From positions 1 to 20,237 of the IMG/VR virus record IMGVR_UViG_3300028571_000160: 20,237 bases of DNA. The stretch is one strand, 5' to 3'. Shown piece by piece: positions 2,699 through 20,237 of the stretch. Each line of letters opens with the position of its first letter. Position 1 is the first letter of the stretch. The translations under genes were made by a program, and so were the position numbers. This DNA comes from a virus. The notes below the pieces were generated by a model, which had not been told where the DNA came from, made no database searches, and saw only the letters and a program-made list of their open reading frames with translations.

Positions 2699-3874
2699 TT
2701 AGTTGCCGCCGCTGATTCTAGGTGTGTTATTCTGCGGAACAGTGTTGGTGTTGTTGCCCTTGGGCGGTGTGGGGAAGAAAGTGCTTAGAGTTTTGTTGAT
2801 AGCTGGCACTTGATTTCTTATCACTGTTTCGACCCCTTGACTCAAGATCTGGGTGCCAACCTGCGTGACTTCTTGCTTGGCTATGGATTTCAAACTCTTG
2901 TCTTTGAATGTCTGATATGTACGAACACCTTGCAGCACAGCACCGATAGGGTTGCCTGCTGCCAGATCATTCAGTATGCCTTGTCCGGCATCCAGCAATC
3001 CGCCTTTGCCTAGTATGGTTGCATTGCCTCCGGGTCTTGTGATTGCGCTGGAAACTTGATCATAGTCAGCAGTCCTGCCAAAGAACGGCGGTGCGCCTGC
3101 CTTGGTGGCGCCATTGAGTGCGCCGGAATAGTATTTGACCAGCTCGTACTTGATGGTCATGGTATTCTGCATGGTTTCGCCGCCGGCAGCATAGTCGTAT
3201 GTGTCATGTGCAAAATCTGTGATCACAGGATTTATCAATGTGTAGGCACTGTAGTTGTGCTGATTGAATCCAAAGATAGTGATGTCATTGAAGAAGTTGG
3301 TGGACGCACCAGGCTGATTATTCACAGGTGAGCCACGTCCTTCGCCTACCAAACCAAAGTCTCCAATCTGGCGCTCGCCTGCATAGATGTCGTTTGAGTT
3401 ATAACTAAATCCTGCAAATGTTGGATCCGACCCCGGGCTGCCGTTGCTGGCAGGAATGCCGTTGTAACTGTATTGGCTGTCTTTGATGTAATACTGATAA
3501 TAGGCATACCACATCTGACGAACTAGATCACTGTTGTCATCGTGAAAAGTTATTTGTACAGGATTGTAATTGATCTTGGTGTTGGCATAGCGTTTGCGAT
3601 TGTACTGATTGAGTTCTTCTACCTGGAATTGATAACTGGGCAATTGCACGCTCTTGACTGTTTTGCTAATAGTGGTATTGGCTTCGCCCAGCAGTTGCGT
3701 GATTCCTGGAATCTGGCCGTTGATGTTGAACACACAATGGAATAGAAACTTGACCTTGGGCGCATAAGCAAATGCGTTAGGTACAAATGTTTTTGATGCG
3801 TGTTGATAGTCCTTGAGCTGAGGACCGGTGATCCCGCTCAAGAACCCTTTTATGAAGTCATTACCGAAGGCCAT
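2699..3874 (-). CDS. Second tail-tube-fold protein (gp19/gp54-like) with C-terminal extension
   Basis: This 391-aa protein follows gp19 and appears to share its fold. KVKFLFHCVFNI is a first tube strand. Next come TVKSVQLPSYQFQVEELNQY and ITFHDDNSDLVRQMWYAYYQ, which mirror the T4 gp19 pattern of a 'LP' loop, a strand and then a helix carrying Trp. INPVITDFAHDTYDY with MTIKYELVKYYSG is the closing strand pair. The C-terminal third (about 275-391) is Gly/Asn/Pro-rich and has no counterpart in gp19. It could be the tube initiator (gp54-like) or another tail-tube-fold structural protein; I cannot decide. ATG 3874 is preferred over the TTG at 3877, because AGGAGG sits 5 nt before the ATG but only 2 nt before the TTG. 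It is co-transcribed with gp19 (14-nt gap). Confidence 0.65.
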   Translation of the reverse strand: MAFGNDFIKGFLSGITGPQLKDYQHASKTFVPNAFAYAPKVKFLFHCVFNINGQIPGITQLLGEANTTISKTVKSVQLPSYQFQVEELNQYNRKRYANTKINYNPVQITFHDDNSDLVRQMWYAYYQYYIKDSQYSYNGIPASNGSPGSDPTFAGFSYNSNDIYAGERQIGDFGLVGEGRGSPVNNQPGASTNFFNDITIFGFNQHNYSAYTLINPVITDFAHDTYDYAAGGETMQNTMTIKYELVKYYSGALNGATKAGAPPFFGRTADYDQVSSAITRPGGNATILGKGGLLDAGQGILNDLAAGNPIGAVLQGVRTYQTFKDKSLKSIAKQEVTQVGTQILSQGVETVIRNQVPAINKTLSTFFPTPPKGNNTNTVPQNNTPRISGGN

Positions 3875-3888
3875 CAAGCCCTCCTAGA

Positions 3889-4548
3889 TTAGCCGCCAGT
3901 TTGACCTGCGCCAGTTATAGAACCAAGAGCTCTACTGACTGCTCCGCCCAACTGTTGACCAACGCCGCCGCCTGTGGTGGGGTCAACGCCTTGCAGTGCA
4001 TTATCAAATCTAATGCTTAGAGAAATAGTTACTGGCTCACTGGAACCATAGTTCAAATCATTGTAATTAGCACTGGCAAGATAGCAGCCCAGCAAGTTCC
4101 ATGTTTCCAATACCACTGGCTCCAGAGCACCGTTGCCGCCGTCTAGTATTTCGCACTGCATGGAAAACTTGTAGTTTACACCTGCTGTGGCACTGGCTTG
4201 CTCATAGAAATCCAATTGTTTCTGCAGTTGCTCGCCTACTAATCTTGTAACCGAACCCGAAGCATCATCGCGAACGTTCAATGTCGTGGCTTCCCATGAA
4301 TGTTTTCCAGGCAGATACACTGTGGAATTGTAAATGGGTATGGTCATTTCTTCAAATGAAACACTGGGTCTAGCAAAGTCAATGACTTGCTTGGTTAATT
4401 CTGTGGTTGCTGTTGTAACACCAAAGCCGTAGAGTAGTACACGGAATCGGTACTTGAGCTTGGGCATCAACAGGCCTTGATTACCTTGACCTTCGATAGG
4501 TACTGTTAGGTTCTGCAAGCTCTGTACGGTCTGTGATGAAAGTGGCAT
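3889..4548 (-). CDS. 19: Tail tube protein (T4 gp19-like)
   Basis: This 219-aa protein is the inner tube through which DNA passes, polymerising in hexameric rings inside the sheath. It has the expected order: LKYRFRVLLYGFG (first strand), a QVIDFARPSVSFEEMTIP loop, STVYLPGKHSWEATTLNVRDD (T4 gp19 has a similarly placed DRTFDDWTVTVMND), the helix LVGEQLQKQLDFYE, and the closing strands WNLLGCYLASANYNDLNYG and VTISLSIRFDNAL. T4 gp19 is 163 aa; the extra length is mainly a Gly-rich C-terminal tail. AGGAG lies 8 nt before the ATG and a GCTAAATA late motif lies 21 nt upstream. Its position just after the sheath gene matches the T4 gene order 18-19. Confidence 0.87.
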   Translation of the reverse strand: MPLSSQTVQSLQNLTVPIEGQGNQGLLMPKLKYRFRVLLYGFGVTTATTELTKQVIDFARPSVSFEEMTIPIYNSTVYLPGKHSWEATTLNVRDDASGSVTRLVGEQLQKQLDFYEQASATAGVNYKFSMQCEILDGGNGALEPVVLETWNLLGCYLASANYNDLNYGSSEPVTISLSIRFDNALQGVDPTTGGGVGQQLGGAVSRALGSITGAGQTGG

Positions 4549-4593: not shown

Positions 4594-4617
4594 AAAATAA
4601 GGGTTGCCCCTTATTTT
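4594..4617 (-). terminator. Perfect 10-bp hairpin with GCAA tetraloop after the sheath gene
   Basis: On the minus strand AAAATAAGGG, loop GCAA and CCCTTATTTT form a perfect 10-bp stem closed by a GNRA tetraloop. The stem starts inside the sheath stop codon (TAA at 4618-4616). The A/T-flanked shape, ending in TTTT, suits a rho-independent terminator for gp18, or an mRNA-stabilising 3' hairpin. The stem is nearly symmetrical, so it could work on either strand, but only the minus strand is transcribed here. Confidence 0.7.
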
Positions 4618-7600
4618 ATGCTCCTGCCGAGATCTCTCCTGTGTTCTTGACACGGATCGGTATGTAGATAAATTCAACTGTTTTAACTGGCTCAACAGCA
4701 ATATCAACATACAGTTCGTTGCGATCCACACGCTCAGGTGTGTTGTTTGATTCATCGCACACTGCCAAGTAATCATAAAGACCGCGTTTTGCTACCAAAT
4801 CATTCAACAGTGTTGTCACTGTGGCCAAGACCTGGCTGCGTGTAAATGCATCGTTGGGCTCAAACAAGTATGGTTGTACTGCTGTGGCCAACTGTGTACG
4901 CAGATAAACAATCAAGCGTGCCACGTTCACACGGTTTAGTGCAGATCCCACATTGTAACGTGTCTTCTGACCATAAGCAGTGATGCCTGTGCCAGGAATA
5001 AACGTGATAGGATTGATGGCGTTTTCATACAAGATGTCACGCAGGTCGCGGCCCATATTGGTTTGTGTGAACTCGCCAGTCTGACCGTTGATATAACCAA
5101 TGCGTGCAGCATTATCTACCACACCACGACGTGTGCCAGCAGGAGCAAACCATGGATAGCTGGCTTCGTCTGAACGTACATATGTACGCAACATCATATG
5201 GCTGGGCGGTTGTACCACGATCGTGCCATCTGTGTTGTTGGTCTGGCAAGAAGGATAGTATGTGGCCACATAAGGATCCCCTGTGGTCACATAATCTTCG
5301 GGCAACACCTGTGCACCGGCCAAATCATTGGTGGCATAGATCTGCAGAGGCTGGCTTGTTGCAGGCAGTCTCATGGGTGTGTCACCAATGATGAACGCTG
5401 TGTTGCTGCGATCATTGTTGAGCACTACCAAGTTCTGGATCAACTCAGGATACTGTGGGCAGGCCAGCAGGTTGAATATGCGTGCATCTTCGCGAGCCTC
5501 TGAACTGACATCAATGGCAGCACGCAGAGCCTGTACAATCAAAGCACGCTGTGCTTTGCGTCCAGCATACATAGCGCCGTTGTCACGCAGGCCAGATGCT
5601 GTGACCCAGGTATACGAATACGTAGGCAAGGTCTGATCAGGATACTTCTGTGCTGTGAAGTAGTTGGTGGTAAAGGCCTTGACGTTAAAGCCCGAACGAC
5701 GCATATTCCAAAGCAAGATACCTTCAGGATATAGATCAGGATCTGGAGCATCCAAGTCCAAGTAATCACTGTTCAACAAACTTTGGATAGTAGGTACAGG
5801 ATCGTTCACAGGGTCAACTGTGCCTGCGCTGGCCCAACGTGCATCAGCAAACAAGATGCCGTTTTGGCTGGTCTGATCGGCATTGTCAATCAACACCCAC
5901 TGATAATCACCGGGTGCTACTTCTTCCCAACGCTTGACGATGGGATAGTTGTCAAGGTCGCTGGTGTCAATCCACAACTGACCCACTTGATCTGTCAGTT
6001 GGATTTCACTACTGTTGACCGTGATAGTTGTGGGCTCAGTGGGACTGATGATAGGACCTGTTTCGTTGAGTCCTGTGCTGAGATTGTAGCCACGGATGTC
6101 TGCTGTGACATTGTAGTAACCTTTCCAAACACCGCCATCTTTGATCATGATGTCAACTTGATCAGCAGCTGAGTAGTACCAGTATGTGCCGTTGTCAGGC
6201 AAGCGATCAGGTGCTGTGGGCTGATAGTAAACTTCTGTGCCCAGCGCCCAGGTGCTGCCGTCTACCCAGTTACTGAGTTCAACCACATCGCCGTCGCCGC
6301 CTAGGCCAGTGCTGCCAAAGTAGTTGTTGGTCTTGGCATTGACTGTTACAGTGGTTGCTGCACCATCGTTGGGCACAAAGCCTGCGATGCTGACCACTGA
6401 ACTGTTGACGCCACCATCTTGCAGCAGGATACTGCCACCATATTCATGTGACAGCACGATGTAACCCTGAGCATTGACTTCAGCAGTGACGCCGTCTAGA
6501 TTGGCACCCGACACAGCTGTAACAAAATCCTCAGCGCTGTAAGTGCCGCCAACTGTACACTCTACAGGAGTAGCGTATACGCTGGATCCCTTGACGCTGG
6601 CACTGATATAGAAAGTCTTATCTGTGGAACTAGTAAAGTCAGGATCGGCTGCTACGCCTTGTGCATTGGTAGCACCTGCTGCATAACGCTGGAATAACTG
6701 CATACCAACCAAACCATTGGTTACAGTATTGGTAGTAGTATTGACTGTAAAATTATTAGTATCTGCCATGGGATGGATTTGTGCATAAGTCGCACCAGCA
6801 GCAATATTCTTGCCGCCGCCTGCAGGATCTAATGCATTATTAACAGCCGCATCACTGATGTACAAAGGACAACTCTGCTGTACAAACTGTAGCAGTGTAG
6901 TGCTCCACTTGCTGACATTCAATAGTGTTCCATTGTTGACTGCTGTGGTCTTGTTCCAGATAGATCCCGAAGGACGCTGAGTGTCCAATGTACTGGTCCA
7001 GCGTGGAGGATTGGTATGTGGTCCTGCTCGTGTCACTGGTACATTATAGGTATCGGCTGTAACTCCCAGCAGACTCAACATACTGGCATCACCCCCTAAA
7101 GCGATAGTGCCGTAAGCACCACCTGAAGGTTGTGCTGTGTATCCGCCGTAGATATTAAGTCTATTGTTGACCACGCCTGCTGTGATACCCGTGATGCTGG
7201 CAGCATTAATGGCTGCAGCCAAGGTAGATATAGTAGCACCCTGTGCGTTGGGAGCCCAAATAGAATTGGGATTGCCCACTACCACTCCCCCATCGGCACC
7301 TACGATCACAGCATAGCTGGCATTGTACCCACCGGTTATGGCAGCAATACTGGTCAAACCAGATGCTGTACCTGCTGCCCAAGTAGTACCGGTTGGTGAC
7401 ACGTAGACTTCTCCAGAAGCAGCAATAGCCACAAACTGTCCGTTGGTATATGTGACATCTACTAAATTTTTAGTTGATGCAATAGCGCTGGCAGTCACAG
7501 CACTCCATGCCGATACGTTGCTAGCTGCATCCGAGGCATTGCGTAACACAGTGCCGCCGGCACCAACTACGATAGTAGTGCCGCCGTTGTAAGCCACGGC

Positions 7601-8923
7601 ATTGAGTGTATTGGTGGTAAGGCTCGCATTTGACACATTAGACAGCGTTGACCAAGCATTGCTAGTGTATAACATACGACCGCTGGCTCCTACTGCAAAT
7701 TGAACACTGGCGTTAGCCAAAGTAGCCACTCCTAAAAGTTGTGTACTGACGTTAGCGTTAGAACCGGCTGCTGTAAAGCCTGCCAACAAGTTAGCCGTGG
7801 TATAGATAGTACCCGAATCGCCTACTGCTGTAAATGAATTGCTGGTATAGGTCACATCACGGAATGCACCGCTGAACGTACCATTGCCTACCTGTGTCCA
7901 AACAGCAGTATTGGCTCCGCCCACTAAGACATTACCGTTGTCACCCACAGCCACATAAGCGGTTCCGTCAGTGGCTACTGCACGCAAGTTACCAGAGAAG
8001 CCAGCGGTGTTGGCCACTGACCACTGATCGGTCACGTTGGCAGCAGGAGCGTAGTAGATTTCATTTGTAGATGAGTTAACTGTTGCACCCACAGCAACAT
8101 AAGTGTTGCTGCCGCCACCGTATGCTACATCTAACAAATCTGTGTCAATACCGCTGTTGATAGTGGTACCGTTGAGTGTGAGATAACCTTGTACACCTGT
8201 GGTAACTGCTGCAGATTGCACAGTAGGCCATACATTTTGCCAGTCAGCGGAACCAACTTCAACCCACTCATTATAATTACTGTCAGTACTGGGAATGGTG
8301 TTACCTGCTTTGTAGTACAAGGGCAGTTCTGTATTTGTAGCCACGATAGCATAATCACCAATCATGCCCACACTTTGCAGAGGTGCCACATTGGGACCTG
8401 TGGTCAAATCAGGATCTGTGATCACCGTAGGCGTTTTCAGTGTAAATGCGCCTGTGCCGCCGCCGCCTGTGCTGTTCCACTCAAACACACCAAATGTGCT
8501 GGCGTCTGTGTCCAACCAGTAGGTGTTGGGAGCGGGATCGCCCAAGGGACGATTCAAGCTGGCACTTAATGCTGCCAAGTCAATGTTGGCACGCATCATA
8601 AATGCGCGGTTGCTGACGCCTAGTACTGAGTAAGCTGCCAACAAGCCATATTCGTTGAGTTCGTAACCGTTGATGGGTGTACCAGCGGTGGTTGTGTAGA
8701 AGAATGGATTACCAAATGTGGTGGCCATATCACGCTGGCTGGTAATTAAATATACCTTGCCTGCGTTGACTTCCAGCGTGCCTGCTGCTACGCCTGTACC
8801 TGTGCCAGAAATTTTGTTCTGGGCTGATGCAAAAAGTATGAAAGGTACGGTACCTGCTGCTGCGGGTAAGTATTGACTTTCGTCTATGACTGTTACTTCT
8901 ACGCCTGGGCTTATAAGGGCCAT
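4616..8923 (-). CDS. 18: Giant tail sheath protein (T4 gp18-like) with inserted beta-propeller
   Basis: This is the contractile sheath subunit, 1435 aa against 659 in T4. The N-terminus MALISPGVEVTVIDESQY is the standard sheath opening. The conserved C-terminal half (about 1035-1435) contains the sheath core: GILLWNMRRSGFNVKAFTTNYFT, RKAQRALIVQALRAAID, the GINPITFIPGTGI-type segment, and the terminal VEFIYIPIRVKNTGEI strand used for intersubunit linkage. Extra material lies between. Residues about 263-558 form seven blade-like repeats (YVAVG, FTAVGDSG, IVVGAGG and similar). A domain resembling split beta/alpha modules occurs at about 244-262 plus 562-592, and again at about 770-837. The Shine-Dalgarno AGGAG is inside the 3' end of the upstream endonuclease gene. 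Insertions presumably point outward from the tail, where sheath domains vary most between phages. Confidence 0.93.
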   Translation of the reverse strand: MALISPGVEVTVIDESQYLPAAAGTVPFILFASAQNKISGTGTGVAAGTLEVNAGKVYLITSQRDMATTFGNPFFYTTTAGTPINGYELNEYGLLAAYSVLGVSNRAFMMRANIDLAALSASLNRPLGDPAPNTYWLDTDASTFGVFEWNSTGGGGTGAFTLKTPTVITDPDLTTGPNVAPLQSVGMIGDYAIVATNTELPLYYKAGNTIPSTDSNYNEWVEVGSADWQNVWPTVQSAAVTTGVQGYLTLNGTTINSGIDTDLLDVAYGGGSNTYVAVGATVNSSTNEIYYAPAANVTDQWSVANTAGFSGNLRAVATDGTAYVAVGDNGNVLVGGANTAVWTQVGNGTFSGAFRDVTYTSNSFTAVGDSGTIYTTANLLAGFTAAGSNANVSTQLLGVATLANASVQFAVGASGRMLYTSNAWSTLSNVSNASLTTNTLNAVAYNGGTTIVVGAGGTVLRNASDAASNVSAWSAVTASAIASTKNLVDVTYTNGQFVAIAASGEVYVSPTGTTWAAGTASGLTSIAAITGGYNASYAVIVGADGGVVVGNPNSIWAPNAQGATISTLAAAINAASITGITAGVVNNRLNIYGGYTAQPSGGAYGTIALGGDASMLSLLGVTADTYNVPVTRAGPHTNPPRWTSTLDTQRPSGSIWNKTTAVNNGTLLNVSKWSTTLLQFVQQSCPLYISDAAVNNALDPAGGGKNIAAGATYAQIHPMADTNNFTVNTTTNTVTNGLVGMQLFQRYAAGATNAQGVAADPDFTSSTDKTFYISASVKGSSVYATPVECTVGGTYSAEDFVTAVSGANLDGVTAEVNAQGYIVLSHEYGGSILLQDGGVNSSVVSIAGFVPNDGAATTVTVNAKTNNYFGSTGLGGDGDVVELSNWVDGSTWALGTEVYYQPTAPDRLPDNGTYWYYSAADQVDIMIKDGGVWKGYYNVTADIRGYNLSTGLNETGPIISPTEPTTITVNSSEIQLTDQVGQLWIDTSDLDNYPIVKRWEEVAPGDYQWVLIDNADQTSQNGILFADARWASAGTVDPVNDPVPTIQSLLNSDYLDLDAPDPDLYPEGILLWNMRRSGFNVKAFTTNYFTAQKYPDQTLPTYSYTWVTASGLRDNGAMYAGRKAQRALIVQALRAAIDVSSEAREDARIFNLLACPQYPELIQNLVVLNNDRSNTAFIIGDTPMRLPATSQPLQIYATNDLAGAQVLPEDYVTTGDPYVATYYPSCQTNNTDGTIVVQPPSHMMLRTYVRSDEASYPWFAPAGTRRGVVDNAARIGYINGQTGEFTQTNMGRDLRDILYENAINPITFIPGTGITAYGQKTRYNVGSALNRVNVARLIVYLRTQLATAVQPYLFEPNDAFTRSQVLATVTTLLNDLVAKRGLYDYLAVCDESNNTPERVDRNELYVDIAVEPVKTVEFIYIPIRVKNTGEISAGA
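7250..8137 (-). other. Seven-repeat beta-propeller-like domain within the sheath gene
   Basis: Sheath residues 263-558 carry seven repeats of about 40 residues with the pattern (D/A)VAY-x-Y/F-V/T-AVG-x-x-G-x-(I/V)-Y/L. They are centred on residues 264-293, 314-336, 355-379, 397-424, 441-462, 487-515 and 525-555. Examples are DVTYTSNSFTAVGDSGTIYT and DVTYTNGQFVAIAASGEVYV. The pattern and the count of seven match Ycf48/BNR-type beta-propellers. Known propellers of this kind bind proteins or glycans; what this one binds cannot be read from sequence. Confidence 0.7.
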
Positions 8924-8924
8924 T

Positions 8925-9632
8925 TTATTCTCCTAAAATCTGTTTAAGTTTGCGCTTGGAAATACCTAATTTTTCTAAGCATTCCTTACGTGTACCATAG
9001 TCACAGCCATTGATCGTCACTGGTTTAGCATTGGCATTTTTAGTACCTTTCCTGCTGTTGCCAATGGTCTGTTTCATTTGCTGTATTGACTCCTGGGTGT
9101 GCTTTTTTCCAAAAAACCCATTAGAGTTTCCAGGGTGCCCGCATTTTATTTTTCGTTGTTCAGCGGGCATAATTTCCCATAGATTTTTTACAGTTTTTCC
9201 TATTTGTAATTTTGTTTCTGCAGTAGGTTTGTAAGTTTTGGCATGATGAGTGTTTCTTAAAGCCTCTTTATGGGCTTCTGTCTTAGCCTTACCTTTCAAC
9301 GCAGCAGACATTTTTAATCCTATTTTTTGGTTTACCAAAGGACCAAGATTTCCGCCATGGCCTCCAAATGCCACATTGTAAGATAAAGGATCATTGACAA
9401 TACTTTCGTTTATAATCTCTTTCTCTTTGGCATTCATTGATTCTTCAGTATCAAACACAAATAAAACTTCCTTGACAAAATTCTCTGCGCCGTATTTTTT
9501 TACAGCATTTGACAATCTTGTTCCGCTACCCAAATAATCATCGTTGATATCCATGGTCTTGTGTTTACCAATGTAGTATTTTTGGTTGATTAAATTAGTA
9601 GTTTTATAAACTGTAAAGTACAAGGGTTTCAT
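8925..9632 (-). CDS. Free-standing GIY-YIG homing endonuclease
   Basis: This 235-aa protein is a site-specific endonuclease of the kind that spreads its own gene between related phages. The GIY-YIG domain is complete: TVYKTTNLINQKYYIGKH (residues 7-24), R39 in GSGTRLSNAVKKYGAENF, E70 in NAKEKEII, and N86 in SYNVAFGGHGG. DNA-binding repeats follow: a NUMOD3-like NSNGFFGKKHTQESI (about 169-183) and an IENR1/helix-turn-helix-like tail with INGCDYGTRKECLEKLGISKRKLKQIL (about 207-233). By eye the gene is more A/T-rich than its neighbours, consistent with lateral arrival. Its 3' end encodes the sheath Shine-Dalgarno, and its stop is 1 nt before the sheath ATG. AATAAATA lies 6 nt before its ATG and no Shine-Dalgarno is visible. 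Confidence 0.9.
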   Translation of the reverse strand: MKPLYFTVYKTTNLINQKYYIGKHKTMDINDDYLGSGTRLSNAVKKYGAENFVKEVLFVFDTEESMNAKEKEIINESIVNDPLSYNVAFGGHGGNLGPLVNQKIGLKMSAALKGKAKTEAHKEALRNTHHAKTYKPTAETKLQIGKTVKNLWEIMPAEQRKIKCGHPGNSNGFFGKKHTQESIQQMKQTIGNSRKGTKNANAKPVTINGCDYGTRKECLEKLGISKRKLKQILGE

Positions 9633-9696: not shown

Positions 9697-9704
9697 TGTA
9701 AATA
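9697..9704 (+). promoter_or_regulatory. Late-promoter-like motif TGTAAATA for the HNH-like gene
   Basis: TGTAAATA on the plus strand ends 5 nt before the ATG at 9710. Under T4 late-promoter geometry the transcript would begin on that A. This decides between the ATG at 9704 (inside the motif) and the one at 9710. Confidence 0.4.
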
Positions 9705-9709
9705 TGTGT

Positions 9710-10048
9710 ATGAGACCCTTGTGCAAAGCCTGCGAACGCCGTCCAAGAGCCATTGCTTACTATCGCAATGACAAGTGTGTGTATCGCAGTAGATGCACTG
9801 AGTGTGAACGGCGCCATAAAAAACTACCCGCACAAACTCCACGCTGGTCTGCGCAGGGCTACAAGTTGAAAAAAATCTGTGACCTATGCGGGTTCCGTGC
9901 CAAAATAGCACGACAACTCATGGTGTATCATTTGGATGGAAATTTGAACAACGGCCAACTGCATAATCTACGCACAGTGTGTCATAACTGCGCGGTAGAA
10001 CTAAGCTGGGACAAGAGTGTCTGGCGTCGCGGTGACCACGTTGAGTAA
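9710..10048 (+). CDS. HNH-like zinc protein, possible endonuclease
   Basis: This 112-aa basic protein has four CxxC pairs (CKAC, CTEC, CDLC, CHNC), enough for two zinc sites. CDLCGF, then VYHLDGNLNNGQLHNLRTVCHNC, follows the HNH pattern: His, Asp and Asn in the H-x-D-x-N segment, an NL strand, then a closing CxxC. It is probably a small HNH endonuclease; a zinc-finger DNA-binding protein is the alternative. It is the only plus-strand gene between 1 and 13259 and is divergent from the GIY-YIG gene. Its last 48 nt overlap the 3' end of gp1 on the opposite strand. The upstream in-frame ATG at 9704 would add two residues but overlaps the promoter-like motif, so 9710 is preferred. No Shine-Dalgarno is visible. 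Confidence 0.7.
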   Translation: MRPLCKACERRPRAIAYYRNDKCVYRSRCTECERRHKKLPAQTPRWSAQGYKLKKICDLCGFRAKIARQLMVYHLDGNLNNGQLHNLRTVCHNCAVELSWDKSVWRRGDHVE

Positions 10049-16422: not shown

Positions 16423-17133
16423 TTATACTCCGTACCTTGATCTGACTAAGTTGTAATTCTGTTGGATTTCTGTTGAGGTCAACGCACGGTTGTAGATCAA
16501 AGCCTGACCTATTCGGCCTTGTAGTGGTTCACTGCCGCCCAGATTAGTAGCACCAACTTGTAACAGACTTGATGTGACATTGATTCCTGTGGCACCAGCT
16601 GACGCAATTTCTGTGCCGTTAACCCAGATTTTTCTAGTGGTGCCATCCCATTGGGCCACAGCATTAAACCATTGCGATGTAGGACTAACTGAGCTGGTTG
16701 CGGCTAGATCATTGCCATACCAATAGTTTATCAAAATGTTAGTGGTGCTACATCTAAATTGATTGGTTTGATTGCCACCAGTTGAATTACCTACACCAAT
16801 CATGCCTCCAGACCCAGGCCAAGTTCCAGTGGGCCACTGAACCCATACACTCATGGTATAGGCACTGGATCCAGTAGGAACACCTGTGGTTGAGGCTCGG
16901 TTAAAATATCCATTGCTGACCAAAGTAAAGTATCCGCCGCCTGAACTAGTATACGAAATACTGCCCGAGTTCTGCATTGCAACATCGTTGCCTTGCCCAC
17001 TTAGATCAAACCAAGTGGTGCCTGTGCCCGGATAACTTGTGGTGTTGCTGGCGTCAAGATACAGTTGTAGGCCGTTGTTTACAACACCATCATATACAGT
17101 GACACCAACGAGTGTAACGCCTTGTATGATCAT
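16423..17133 (-). CDS. LamG / concanavalin-A-like adhesin-type protein
   Basis: This 236-aa protein is nearly all a LamG_3-type jelly-roll domain. LQLYLDASNTTSYPGTGTTW with FDLSGQGNDV is the first-strand signature. YTMSVWVQWPT, a central INYWYGNDL strand, WFNAVAQWDGTTRKIWVNGTEI and LQGRIGQALIYNRALTSTEIQQNYN give the typical order and ending of phage and bacterial LamG modules. No signal peptide is seen. Such proteins in phages are commonly tail-fibre tips or head decorations that bind sugars. It starts 10 nt after the fibre gene stop and is probably co-transcribed with it, so a fibre-associated adhesin is the best inference. The Shine-Dalgarno is weak (GGA). Confidence 0.8.
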   Translation of the reverse strand: MIIQGVTLVGVTVYDGVVNNGLQLYLDASNTTSYPGTGTTWFDLSGQGNDVAMQNSGSISYTSSGGGYFTLVSNGYFNRASTTGVPTGSSAYTMSVWVQWPTGTWPGSGGMIGVGNSTGGNQTNQFRCSTTNILINYWYGNDLAATSSVSPTSQWFNAVAQWDGTTRKIWVNGTEIASAGATGINVTSSLLQVGATNLGGSEPLQGRIGQALIYNRALTSTEIQQNYNLVRSRYGV

Positions 17134-17143
17134 GATTGATCCA

Positions 17144-20100
17144 TTAACTGATTTGGACCCAACCGTAACGCACAGTTACAGTATTGCCGCTGGTGTTGTT
17201 GATGCCAAAGTCAAATCTATTGGTAGTTGCACTGGGAGCAACACTGCTCCGAATTATGGTGTTTGCAGTGCCCACAAACTGATTGGGTATGCTGGTAAAG
17301 TCAATGGGTGTGCCACCACCGCTGTAGACCCAGGCATACTGAGCACCCACAACAGATACGTTGGTGTTGGTCACTGTGGCCGTGGCATTCCAGGTCAAGA
17401 TACCATTGGGGATATTGCAATCAACCCACATATAATAGGTCTCGTTGGGATTCACAGTGAAACTCTGGGTGCTGTTGCCCACAGGCACAGTCCAACTGCC
17501 TTCAAATCTTGTGACCACATCCACCGGTGTGTTGTTGGCATAGTTTACAGAGAATGTGTTGCCGGGTAAAGTGAAGTTACCGGTGTTGTCAAATGTCCAA
17601 TTGTATGAGCCGGCTACCAAGGTCACATTGGACGATGTGCCTGTGACATTGCCTGTGATTGATATGTTTCCAATTAAGTTTTGTGCAGTAACGTTGCCAG
17701 AGAATGTGGCTCCTGACCCGTTGACGTTGCCTGCAATGTTGGCTATGCCGCCAACGTATATGTTGCCAGTAAGTCCAGCGCCACCAGTTACAATCAATGC
17801 ACCTGTGGTAGTTGAGGTAGCCGCAGTTCCTATTGTAACACCCAATGTTGGTATGTTAGCACCGTTGTTGTTTAATGTGATAGAAGCGGCACCACCTGGA
17901 CTCAGAAGACGTCCAGTTCCGCCAACTTTGATTTGACCTTGGAAGTCAGTTTGGTTGTTGGCTGACCAACTGATATTGCCACCAGTGAATGCCGAGGATT
18001 GTAGCTGACCACCAGTTACGATATTGCCTGTGGCCACAACACGTCCGCCTGTGATCAAGTTGCCACTGGTGATATTGCCTGTAGTGCTTACTGTGTTGCT
18101 ACCATATGCACCCAAGAATGTTGCCACCTCGGCATTGCCATAACTTGCGGCTATACCAGTGAGTTGACTACCGTTACCTATAAAGTAGTTGCCGGTAACA
18201 TTGCCCACAGTGGTGATGCCCACATTGGCTATCAAGGTACCCGACGCAGTGATGTTGCCTGTAGCGCCCACGGTAGAGATACTGCTGAAGCCGGACAAGG
18301 TGGGTGCCGGGCTGGCTCCTGTAGCGCGGATGCCTCCGGATACCACAAGATAAGCTGCCGATACATTGCCAGTGGTTGTAATGTTACCCGGAGCACTTAA
18401 GGTACCATCGTTGTCAAACTGCCAACTGCTGCTATTGGCTCTGATATAAACATTGCTATCGCTGGATGTCAACTCAATGTCATTGACAGCACCTGTGCCA
18501 TTGGCTGCAGCATTACCAAACGTCAATGCCGAACCAGGTGATGCATTTAAAGCACTGTATGAGAATTTTTTAGTAGCACTGTCTAAAGTCCAGGCATTGG
18601 TCTGTGAATCAGTTGACAAATACCATTGACTTGTTGTAGTATCAAACAAGTTCCATTGTAGTGTAATGGTATCGTTGCCTATAGAATTGTCACTGAACTG
18701 CCAAGCAAAAGCGTTTAAGTTGCCAACAGTGCTATTGGGAGATTTAAATGTGTTGCCGCTGTAGACATAGTTGTTGGCGAATATTAGATTTCCGGGCGCA
18801 GTTAAATTACCAGTGTTGTCAAATGTCCAGGTGTTTATAGCCACACCATTGTTGACTGCTGTGATCTGCACATTGCCACTGCTGAGTGTGTTTCTACCGC
18901 CTTGTAGATTGAGATTGCCGGCTTCTGTGACAATGGCACTGTTGCCAGTAATGTTAACAATTTCGTTATTTTGACCAAACACCCACTTGGTTAGGTAGTC
19001 AGTGGCACCGCCGTCGTAGTTGACTCGAATGTTGAAATCATTGTCGGCTTCAACATCAACATCGCCGCCCACAGATCGCAAAATCAGTTCTTCGTTGTCC
19101 CAGGAAATCACCATGTCATCGCTAACAGGTCCTATCGCACCGTCGCCGCCATCTACTATAATGCTACCACCGTTGGGCAAATTCAAGTTGCCATCATCAC
19201 CAAACTGCCATTGGTATGCGGTTCCGCTGGTATCTGTGTAGATGTTGACCACAGCGTTTGCTTCAAGATTGATAGATTCTGCTGCCTGTACTTCAAAGTT
19301 ATCGGAGTTGGTGTCAATCCTAGGTGTGCCCGGGAACGTTAAACGACCATCTGTGCCAAACAGCCAAGTGTTACCGGTGCCGGTGACTAAGGATACATTT
19401 CCTGCAGTGATAGATATGTTACTGTATCCTGGAGATACAGCTATACCACCGCTGCTATATGCAGTCCAGGTATTTCCATTCACTGGATTGGTCAGTGCCG
19501 CATCATTGTAGAGCACAAAGTTACTGGGATCTATGGATGCGTAATACCATGTACCGTTTGCTTGAGTAGTTCCAACCACACCAGAAATTGTTACTTGTCC
19601 AGTTTCAATGGCGCCAAACACACTTCCAGTCAAGGTAACTATCACAGTTGGGCTTCCAGTGTTAATGCCACTGATGTTGGAACTAAATTGGAATCCTGTA
19701 GAGATGGTTTGTATGTTGCCTGCAACAGTTAAATTTCCATCTATATCAAAGTTCCAGATCCGTGCTGTGCCGCCCACTGGAGCATTGGCTGTGATGTACA
19801 GGCCATTGGTTTCATTGGCCACGATGTTGCCGGCCACTTTCAACGGAACGTTTTGTATCAACACTTCGGTTGGCAACACAACAAGATTGTTGTAGCCCCC
19901 AGCTCCGATGTTGACCCCATTGTTACCTATCCGGGCACTGATGTTTTCCACAGTGAAATTTAGACTGTCAAGATTGGTAATGTTTCCTGAGAGTCCAACG
20001 AAATAGTTTGCTGTGACATTGCCTGAGGCACTGACATTGCCTGCTGAAATGTTGCCCGAGAATGTAGGCAAGTAGTTGGCCACATTGGCATTGCCATAAC

Positions 20101-20237
20101 TTGAAACAATACCAGTCAACTGACTGCCATTGCCCACGAAGTAGTTGGCCGTGATGTTGCCCGTGGTGCTGATGGGATTGGATCCAAGTGCAGCCAAGTT
20201 GGCCACAACGTTGGCATTGCCGTAAGTGGCCGCTAGG
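17144..20237 (-). CDS. Long repetitive tail fibre protein, partial (N-terminus beyond right edge)
   Basis: The frame is open from the stop at 17144 to the window edge, giving over 1025 residues. A GTG at 20206 is possible, but upstream codons read LAATYGNANVANL, a repeat unit also found inside the protein, so the true start lies outside. The sequence is beta-rich (Gly/Asn/Thr/Ser). Numbering from 20206, the module TGN(I/V)T-x-NYF-(V/I)-GNGSQLTGI occurs at 15-33 and 668-685. WxFDxxGxLxxPG occurs seven times (near 151, 281, 333, 408, 460, 595 and 870). TSTTTGALIVTGGAGL (798-813) is a recurrent phage-fibre motif. The last 135 residues are non-repetitive, include YYMWVDCNIPNG, and are the candidate receptor-binding tip. 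It may instead be a baseplate-attached structural fibre; the class is confident, the exact role is not. Confidence 0.87.
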   Translation of the reverse strand, partial: LAATYGNANVVANLAALGSNPISTTGNITANYFVGNGSQLTGIVSSYGNANVANYLPTFSGNISAGNVSASGNVTANYFVGLSGNITNLDSLNFTVENISARIGNNGVNIGAGGYNNLVVLPTEVLIQNVPLKVAGNIVANETNGLYITANAPVGGTARIWNFDIDGNLTVAGNIQTISTGFQFSSNISGINTGSPTVIVTLTGSVFGAIETGQVTISGVVGTTQANGTWYYASIDPSNFVLYNDAALTNPVNGNTWTAYSSGGIAVSPGYSNISITAGNVSLVTGTGNTWLFGTDGRLTFPGTPRIDTNSDNFEVQAAESINLEANAVVNIYTDTSGTAYQWQFGDDGNLNLPNGGSIIVDGGDGAIGPVSDDMVISWDNEELILRSVGGDVDVEADNDFNIRVNYDGGATDYLTKWVFGQNNEIVNITGNSAIVTEAGNLNLQGGRNTLSSGNVQITAVNNGVAINTWTFDNTGNLTAPGNLIFANNYVYSGNTFKSPNSTVGNLNAFAWQFSDNSIGNDTITLQWNLFDTTTSQWYLSTDSQTNAWTLDSATKKFSYSALNASPGSALTFGNAAANGTGAVNDIELTSSDSNVYIRANSSSWQFDNDGTLSAPGNITTTGNVSAAYLVVSGGIRATGASPAPTLSGFSSISTVGATGNITASGTLIANVGITTVGNVTGNYFIGNGSQLTGIAASYGNAEVATFLGAYGSNTVSTTGNITSGNLITGGRVVATGNIVTGGQLQSSAFTGGNISWSANNQTDFQGQIKVGGTGRLLSPGGAASITLNNNGANIPTLGVTIGTAATSTTTGALIVTGGAGLTGNIYVGGIANIAGNVNGSGATFSGNVTAQNLIGNISITGNVTGTSSNVTLVAGSYNWTFDNTGNFTLPGNTFSVNYANNTPVDVVTRFEGSWTVPVGNSTQSFTVNPNETYYMWVDCNIPNGILTWNATATVTNTNVSVVGAQYAWVYSGGGTPIDFTSIPNQFVGTANTIIRSSVAPSATTNRFDFGINNTSGNTVTVRYGWVQIS
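18095..18211 (-). repeat. Fibre repeat module, inner copy
   Basis: This stretch encodes TTVGNVTGNYFIGNGSQLTG followed by IAASYGNAEVATFLGAYGSN (about residues 665-704). It is a diverged copy of 20069-20167, and the tail of the unit recurs at the window edge. Confidence 0.75.
20069..20167 (-). repeat. Fibre repeat module, outer copy
   Basis: This stretch encodes TTGNITANYFVGNGSQLTG followed by IVSSYGNANVANYL (about residues 14-46). It is similar at DNA and protein level to the copy at 18095-18211. The preceding ATYGNANVANLAALGSN up to 20237 is the end of a further copy cut by the window edge. Confidence 0.75.

Follow-up and report, generated by a model that had tools for sequence, protein, structure and literature searches.

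Accessory domains of tail sheaths and propellers in virions

Tail sheath proteins of contractile phages often carry accessory domains, which in a survey of 112 sheaths were found to lie away from the tail tube, to be mostly immunoglobulin-like (Ig-like) and to be, it is thought, non-essential for contraction; a role in adsorption or stability has been proposed for them, and sheath size rises with genome size (PMC9230969). Beta-propellers are known from other virion proteins, namely the nozzles of T7 (gp12) and SU10, the K1F endosialidase and a capsid-associated structural protein of phAss-1 (PMC10607447). Here we describe a tail sheath gene in which a block of seven repeats, likely folding as a seven-bladed propeller, is inserted into an outer accessory domain. 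The gene is found in the virus record IMGVR_UViG_3300028571_000160, the whole of which (20,237 bases, referred to as the window) was analysed.

The protein resembles the so-called type 3 multi-domain sheaths of large phages, in which a conserved core formed by the N- and C-terminal parts is interrupted by accessory domains. It differs from the surveyed sheaths in that their accessory domains are Ig-like beta-sandwiches, or alpha-helical in the case of AR9/PBS1, and the word propeller is absent from that survey (PMC9230969). The propellers of T7 gp12, SU10, K1F and phAss-1 reside in a nozzle, a tailspike enzyme or a capsid-associated protein rather than in a sheath, and none of them matches the block in sequence. 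Ycf48/PSII_BNR propellers are seven-bladed rings, the arrangement predicted for the block, and have a similar blade pattern (LxDVxYxxGxYVAVGxxGxIYxSxDGxTW); unlike Ycf48, the block is unrecognised by the PSII_BNR profile, sits in a phage sheath and has no link to a photosystem. The nearest phage relatives are the gp7 "baseplate wedge initiator" proteins of cyanophages S-SSM7 and S-CAM9, which differ in being baseplate wedge proteins of 3000-3900 amino acids, present in few copies at the tail tip. A search of the open-access literature, the scope of which excludes most subscription journals, turned up no tail sheath described as bearing a propeller. What is new is thus the propeller as a type of sheath accessory domain; multi-domain sheaths, and propellers elsewhere in virions, were already known.

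A block inserted into a gp18-type sheath

The sheath gene is a single unbroken open reading frame (ORF) of 1435 codons at 4616-8923 on the minus strand. Profile and sequence matches identify its product as a tail sheath protein of the gp18 type: Pfam family PF17482 (Phage_sheath_1C) is matched at residues 1327-1425 (6e-16, 58.8 bits against a cut-off of 26.9), phrog_10581 and phrog_23 are matched at 1.5e-196 and 1.4e-39 respectively, and the T4 gp18 chain 9mkb at 1e-26. A tail tube gene (3889-4548, minus strand; phrog_4542, 6e-48) lies directly downstream on the same strand, which is the gene order of a phage sheath. The stretch matched by phrog_23 is the C-terminal part of the conserved sheath core (residues 1097-1429; 4637-5635, minus strand), and it is 95-98% identical among those propeller carriers that cover it.

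The block itself was delimited by alignment with relatives that lack it. It occupies residues ~258-562 (7238-8152, minus strand) and separates the first half of an outer accessory domain (residues 118-257; 8153-8572, minus strand), which has a counterpart in insert-free sheaths such as L020, L030 and L037, from the second half (residues 563-660; 6944-7237, minus strand), which alignment and models show to restart at the helix STLAAAIN. An earlier reading made from the sequence only had placed the block at residues 263-558 (8137-7250), positions that agree with the ORF and are nearly right, the insert being slightly wider. The same reading had the protein return to sheath-type sequence after the block; the sheath does resume there, first with the remaining half of the outer domain, while the core follows at residues 1097-1429.

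In total, 254 sheath ORFs were recovered from three scans of viral contigs, 189 of them complete at the 5' end. Blades are confined to one clade (the window, L001, L002/L016, L003, L004/L014, L005, L006/L013, L007, L017 and L018). All 33 of the compared sheaths with ~60% identity lack the block, and they do so at one and the same point ("..INGTTI" / "..TISTLAAAIN.."), as the sequence-only reading had proposed to examine. Insert-free sheaths of the subfamily (L020, L030, L037, L039 and L045, and those of the jumbo contigs L026 and L032) have the same outer domain and the same domain order and differ from the window's sheath in having no propeller; when full-length they measure 1077-1148 amino acids versus 1435 in the window, and the contigs that bear them reach 315 kb in length. 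In a predicted model of the insert-free L030 sheath the insertion point is a loop, with strand 240-243 before it and helix 249-258 after it, in the outer domain, for which the predicted local distance difference test score (pLDDT) is mostly 80-93. In the window model a strand (144-147) precedes the propeller and a helix (456-465) follows it, indicating that the host outer domain is intact around the insert. The block is a plug-in insertion within one strand-to-helix loop of the outer accessory domain.

Two trivial origins of the block were considered and rejected. A chimeric assembly or frameshift fusion is ruled out by nine other, independent contigs from other metagenomes, each of which reads in one open frame across as much of the block as it covers. 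An ordinary sheath domain in disguise is likewise ruled out, as sheath-family profiles skip the block and the 33 compared homologues are without it. No flanking DNA repeat or target-site duplication of at least 20 bases was detected at the insertion. Beyond the clade, no further propeller-bearing sheath was encountered among the 189 complete ORFs, a small extra scan and the isolate sheaths that were fetched. Among the scanned sheaths L231 and L250 are also large, and no propeller was assigned to either. In two others of the wider family, L217 (1368 amino acids) and L237 (1346 amino acids), the extra length consists of a different repetitive beta domain with SGxGYxxGDxLTV-type repeats, which is not a propeller. 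Together with the propeller clade, these two sheaths show that the outer sheath accepts various modules and that its surface tolerates insertion.

Seven repeats and the predicted fold

The repeat units begin at sheath residues 262, 312, 353, 395, 439, 486 and 522, a spacing of 36-50 amino acids (~42 each). Five copies of the strict AVGxxGxI-type motif are present in the block, as opposed to a mean of 0.1 and a maximum of 3 in 5000 shuffles, and every blade, when scored on a profile of the other six, outperforms 94.5-100% of its own shuffles, so that the seven consecutive repeats first noticed in the sequence are borne out. In this leave-one-out analysis blades 3 and 6 are strong, and blades 1, 2 and 7 only moderate. 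Judged by sequence, then, the repeat pattern is real, but several blades are degenerate and the array does not consist of seven clean copies. Repeat analysis and predicted strands place the blades, all on the minus strand, at residues 261-312 (blade 1; 7988-8143), 313-353 (blade 2; 7865-7987), 354-395 (blade 3; 7739-7864), 396-439 (blade 4; 7607-7738), 440-486 (blade 5; 7466-7606), 487-522 (blade 6; 7358-7465) and 523-558 (blade 7; 7250-7357). Blades 6 and 7 are the best conserved. No direct DNA repeat of at least 20 bases was found within the array, and this, together with the degeneracy of blades 1, 2 and 7, suggests that the array is probably old.

An AlphaFold2 model of sheath residues 110-665, based on 40 aligned sequences, has a pLDDT of 71.7 and a predicted template modelling score (pTM) of 0.61, and shows seven blades, each of three or four strands, over residues ~261-550. 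A Foldseek search of the PDB yielded 1398 matches at E <= 1e-3, and all 50 that were listed are propellers or propeller-bearing chains. The best of these listed matches by target-normalised template modelling score (TMt) is the seven-bladed nvWrap-T (7bie; TMt 0.66, root-mean-square deviation (rmsd) 7 Å), and the Ycf48 structures 8am5_S, 5oj3 and 2xbg are among them with TMt of 0.54-0.58. The structural comparison thus agrees with the propeller that had been anticipated, and the model makes it likely that the block is a seven-bladed propeller of the broad Ycf48/BNR-like type with a closed ring.

Family assignment by sequence is less sharp. The best Pfam match of the block is DUF6242 (PF19755), a propeller-type family (2.8e-5, 24.5 bits, below the curated cut-off of 29), which all eight aligned block sequences match weakly; the NCBIfam model BamI_Bacteroidota is matched at 9.7e-7 (28.4 bits, below its cut-off of 370). 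No Pfam propeller family exceeds its cut-off for the block, PSII_BNR (PF14870) has no match in the window at E <= 0.1, and NF010237 does not match the sheath block, so that the likeness to Ycf48 is structural only. Neither the block nor its profile matches a solved propeller in sequence, the only hits of the profile being chance matches to the sigma-1 receptor (E ~0.25). These searches returned no sheath domain across the block; profile matches and structure prediction alike therefore leave the propeller assignment standing.

An Asp-box-like motif, S-x-(D/N/T)-G-x-T-W, is present in blade 6 alone (SPTGTTW in the window, STDGSTW in L004), and it is not repeated as are the Asp boxes of BNR sialidases. 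The block carries little charge (5 K/R and 12 D/E in 295 amino acids), and its prevalent residues are A, T, G, V, S and N. With just five lysines and arginines, and no match to a sialidase profile in Pfam-type searches, a sialidase arginine triad is unlikely.

Divergence and apparent exchange of propeller alleles

The propeller of the window is 70% identical to that of L005 and 55% identical to that of L017, compared with 93-99% at sheath residues 1-117 and 901-1080 for the same pairs and 95% to L017 in the C-terminal core. It is the fastest-diverging region of the sheath. Pairwise ratios of non-synonymous to synonymous divergence (dN/dS) of the propeller are 0.08-0.22, figures that are rough as synonymous divergence (dS) is near saturation for the diverged pairs; they point to a propeller fold maintained by purifying selection.

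Identity at third codon positions is mosaic. Between L001 and the window it reaches 0.88-0.98 at residues 301-500, as against 0.54 at residues 151-200 and 0.52 at residues 801-850, whereas between L005 and the window it is 0.90-0.98 at residues 1-150 and 0.84-0.93 beyond residue 900 and drops to as little as 0.20 at residues 351-400. By this measure L001 has a window-like propeller on a more distant background, and L005 a window-like background with a different propeller. Propeller alleles thus appear to have been exchanged by homologous recombination. A second fast-diverging stretch is found at sheath residues 661-900, which form another outer domain of similar strand-strand-helix type; nucleotide identity at residues 801-850 is ~70-75% in all comparisons.

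A gene for a GIY-YIG/NUMOD3 homing endonuclease (8925-9632, minus strand) is situated between the sheath gene and a deoxynucleoside monophosphate (dNMP) kinase gene and ends in a stop codon that adjoins the sheath start codon. The gap between kinase and sheath is 391 bases in the carriers L004 and L005 versus 1077 in the window, so that the homing gene is absent in these two. Being freestanding and adjacent to a mosaic sheath gene, such a homing gene could promote the exchange of alleles.

Related blades in other virion proteins

Related blades are found in other structural proteins. A 6028-amino-acid ORF on the 133-kb contig of the carrier L018 matches the virion structural family phrog_10938 and contains them (blade profile E 6e-12). 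In the 4773-amino-acid part of this protein that was read (L265, G001:C1:92000-111000), a run of Ycf48-like blades occupies residues ~3811-4125 and a second set residues 3346-3461, which would be another propeller in the same phage. From cultured phages, the proteins that match best in sequence are the gp7 baseplate wedge proteins of S-SSM7 and S-CAM9 (34-35% identity, tblastn E 0.03-0.3); S-SSM7 gp7 also heads the structural matches of the model in BFVD (6.8e-13), and alignment of profiles of the block and the cyanophage gp7 propeller gives a probability of 94-95%. With blades shared by sheath, phrog_10938 protein and gp7, the module seems to move among tail and virion proteins.

A further protein with blades of this kind is encoded on another contig at L008:3657-7046; it has 1129 amino acids, with Ycf48/BNR-like blades in its first half and no PHROG or Pfam match. 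The propeller profile finds nothing else on the insert-free jumbo contigs L026 (315 kb) and L032 (210 kb). A pattern-based scan of bacterial and archaeal genomes, whose reach is limited to close relatives, yielded no cellular donor. The gene psbA, which would have hinted at a photosynthetic host, was not found on carrier contigs, that of L018 among them, or on related contigs. Of the 50 best BFVD matches of the model, one alone is a sheath: A0A8S5SZY6, a "Tail sheath protein" of Myoviridae sp. ctWb16 (1037 amino acids; E 9.5e-8 over 580 columns), for which the TM-score is just 0.15; by structural match it may be a second propeller-bearing case.

Possible roles of the sheath propeller

The reading preferred here, to which we assign a probability of about 0.5, is that a seven-bladed propeller in an outer loop of the sheath is displayed outward and serves as a weak, multivalent adhesion module. 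Each sheath subunit would expose a propeller on the outside of the tail, so that every ring would bear six, and the contracting core would be left undisturbed. Outward display is suggested by the location of accessory sheath domains away from the tail tube, next to which a propeller would in addition be far too bulky to pack. The T4 sheath has six subunits per ring, with a rise of ~41 Å when extended and ~16 Å when contracted, at radii of ~120 and ~165 Å. From these dimensions the outer surface available to each subunit is ~5100 and ~2800 square Å respectively, which leaves room for a propeller ~45 Å wide. The propellers would tether the tail to polysaccharide, on the cell surface or in the environment, ahead of baseplate engagement, through the avidity of individually weak contacts as opposed to catalysis. 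In an otherwise very conserved protein the propeller varies, and is exchanged, more than any other part, which fits contact with something variable outside. Several observations weigh against this reading. There is no known binding partner or catalytic motif for the propeller, its fast divergence is also compatible with plain relaxed constraint, and the saturation of dS blurs the sign of selection. With respect to ring closure, blades 3, 6 and 7 have poorly formed fourth strands and the model deviates from known propellers by an rmsd of 7-11 Å, and with respect to placement in the assembled sheath, the core is of low confidence in the full-length L030 model.

The main rival of adhesion is docking or cementing, wherein the propeller would anchor appendages or stiffen the tail by binding to a neighbouring subunit or to another virion protein, such as a decoration protein or tail hairs. 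Propellers are common protein-binding scaffolds. The Rak2-like jumbo phage CBB, which has a homologous sheath 36% identical to that of the window, bears stable hair-like whiskers along its contractile tail; the protein that attaches them is unknown, and the proteins of CBB include Kelch-type propellers, one of which is part of the virion (PMC5259590). Accessory sheath domains of phage 812 have also been reported to contact neighbouring subunits (PMC9230969). A lattice contact should, however, be among the more constrained regions of the sheath, while the propeller is its most divergent part; moreover, the nearest relatives are presumably viable without it and the genes of the window point to no partner. 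Docking is accordingly regarded as rather unlikely, at around half the weight given to adhesion.

A neutral or nearly neutral hitchhiker, that is a mobile propeller which folds well in a permissive loop and is harmless or at most shields the tail, would account for the patchy distribution in a single clade and for insertion into a loop, and the unrelated repeat domains of L217 and L237 show that inserts in the outer sheath are tolerated. The dN/dS values, and the preservation of length and blade number across carriers at 55-70% identity, indicate instead that a folded domain is selected, and a load of 305 residues on a protein present, as in T4, in well over a hundred copies is costly, which makes this explanation improbable. 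Least probable of all is a repetitive beta-rich region other than a closed seven-bladed propeller, such as a solenoid that stays open or a ring of more or fewer blades. The moderate confidence of the model (pLDDT ~72, pTM 0.61), a best listed PDB match of just TMt 0.66 with 7 Å rmsd, the weak fourth strands and the lack of a Pfam propeller family above cut-off speak for such a region; against it stand seven repeats of ~42 amino acids, the propellers that make up the listed Foldseek matches, and the ends of the block, which lie together at a single loop in the host domain, in keeping with first and last blades that adjoin.

Neighbouring genes

Elsewhere in the window are genes of a T4-related myovirus for proteins of the neck and for the completion of head and sheath, and a second tail-tube-like protein is encoded at 2699-3877 on the minus strand (phrog_13438, 8e-17). 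For the sheath, tail tube and completion proteins the closest cultured relatives are the jumbo phages Agrobacterium Atu_ph07, Sinorhizobium Phosso and Pseudomonas PA5oct. A small cysteine-rich ORF on the opposite strand (9704-10048, plus strand) adjoins the homing endonuclease gene and by eye has an HNH-like pattern (CDLCGF...YHLDGNLNN...CHNC). Within 16423-20236 on the minus strand a LamG/concanavalin-like protein is encoded at 16423-17133, and upstream of it lies a protein of at least 1020 amino acids, made up of GN(V/I)TANYFVGNGSQLTGI-type repeats, that runs off the end of the window. The LamG-like and repeat-protein genes are probably tail fibre or adhesin genes.

Significance for contractile tails

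Why large phages carry accessory domains on their sheaths is an unsettled question, and sheaths of ~60% identity with and without the propeller offer a natural comparison for the role of an outer domain in adhesion, appendage docking or stability. A propeller module is common to the sheath, the gp7 baseplate wedge and giant virion proteins. A tolerated insertion site on the outer surface of the sheath would be of use for protein display on contractile nanomachines. For this clade of large phages as a whole we tentatively suggest, at somewhat less than even odds, that sheath propellers which recombine cover the contractile tails in a regular array, so that the tail shaft would itself be an adhesive or tail-hair-docking surface whose alleles are swapped as cassettes.

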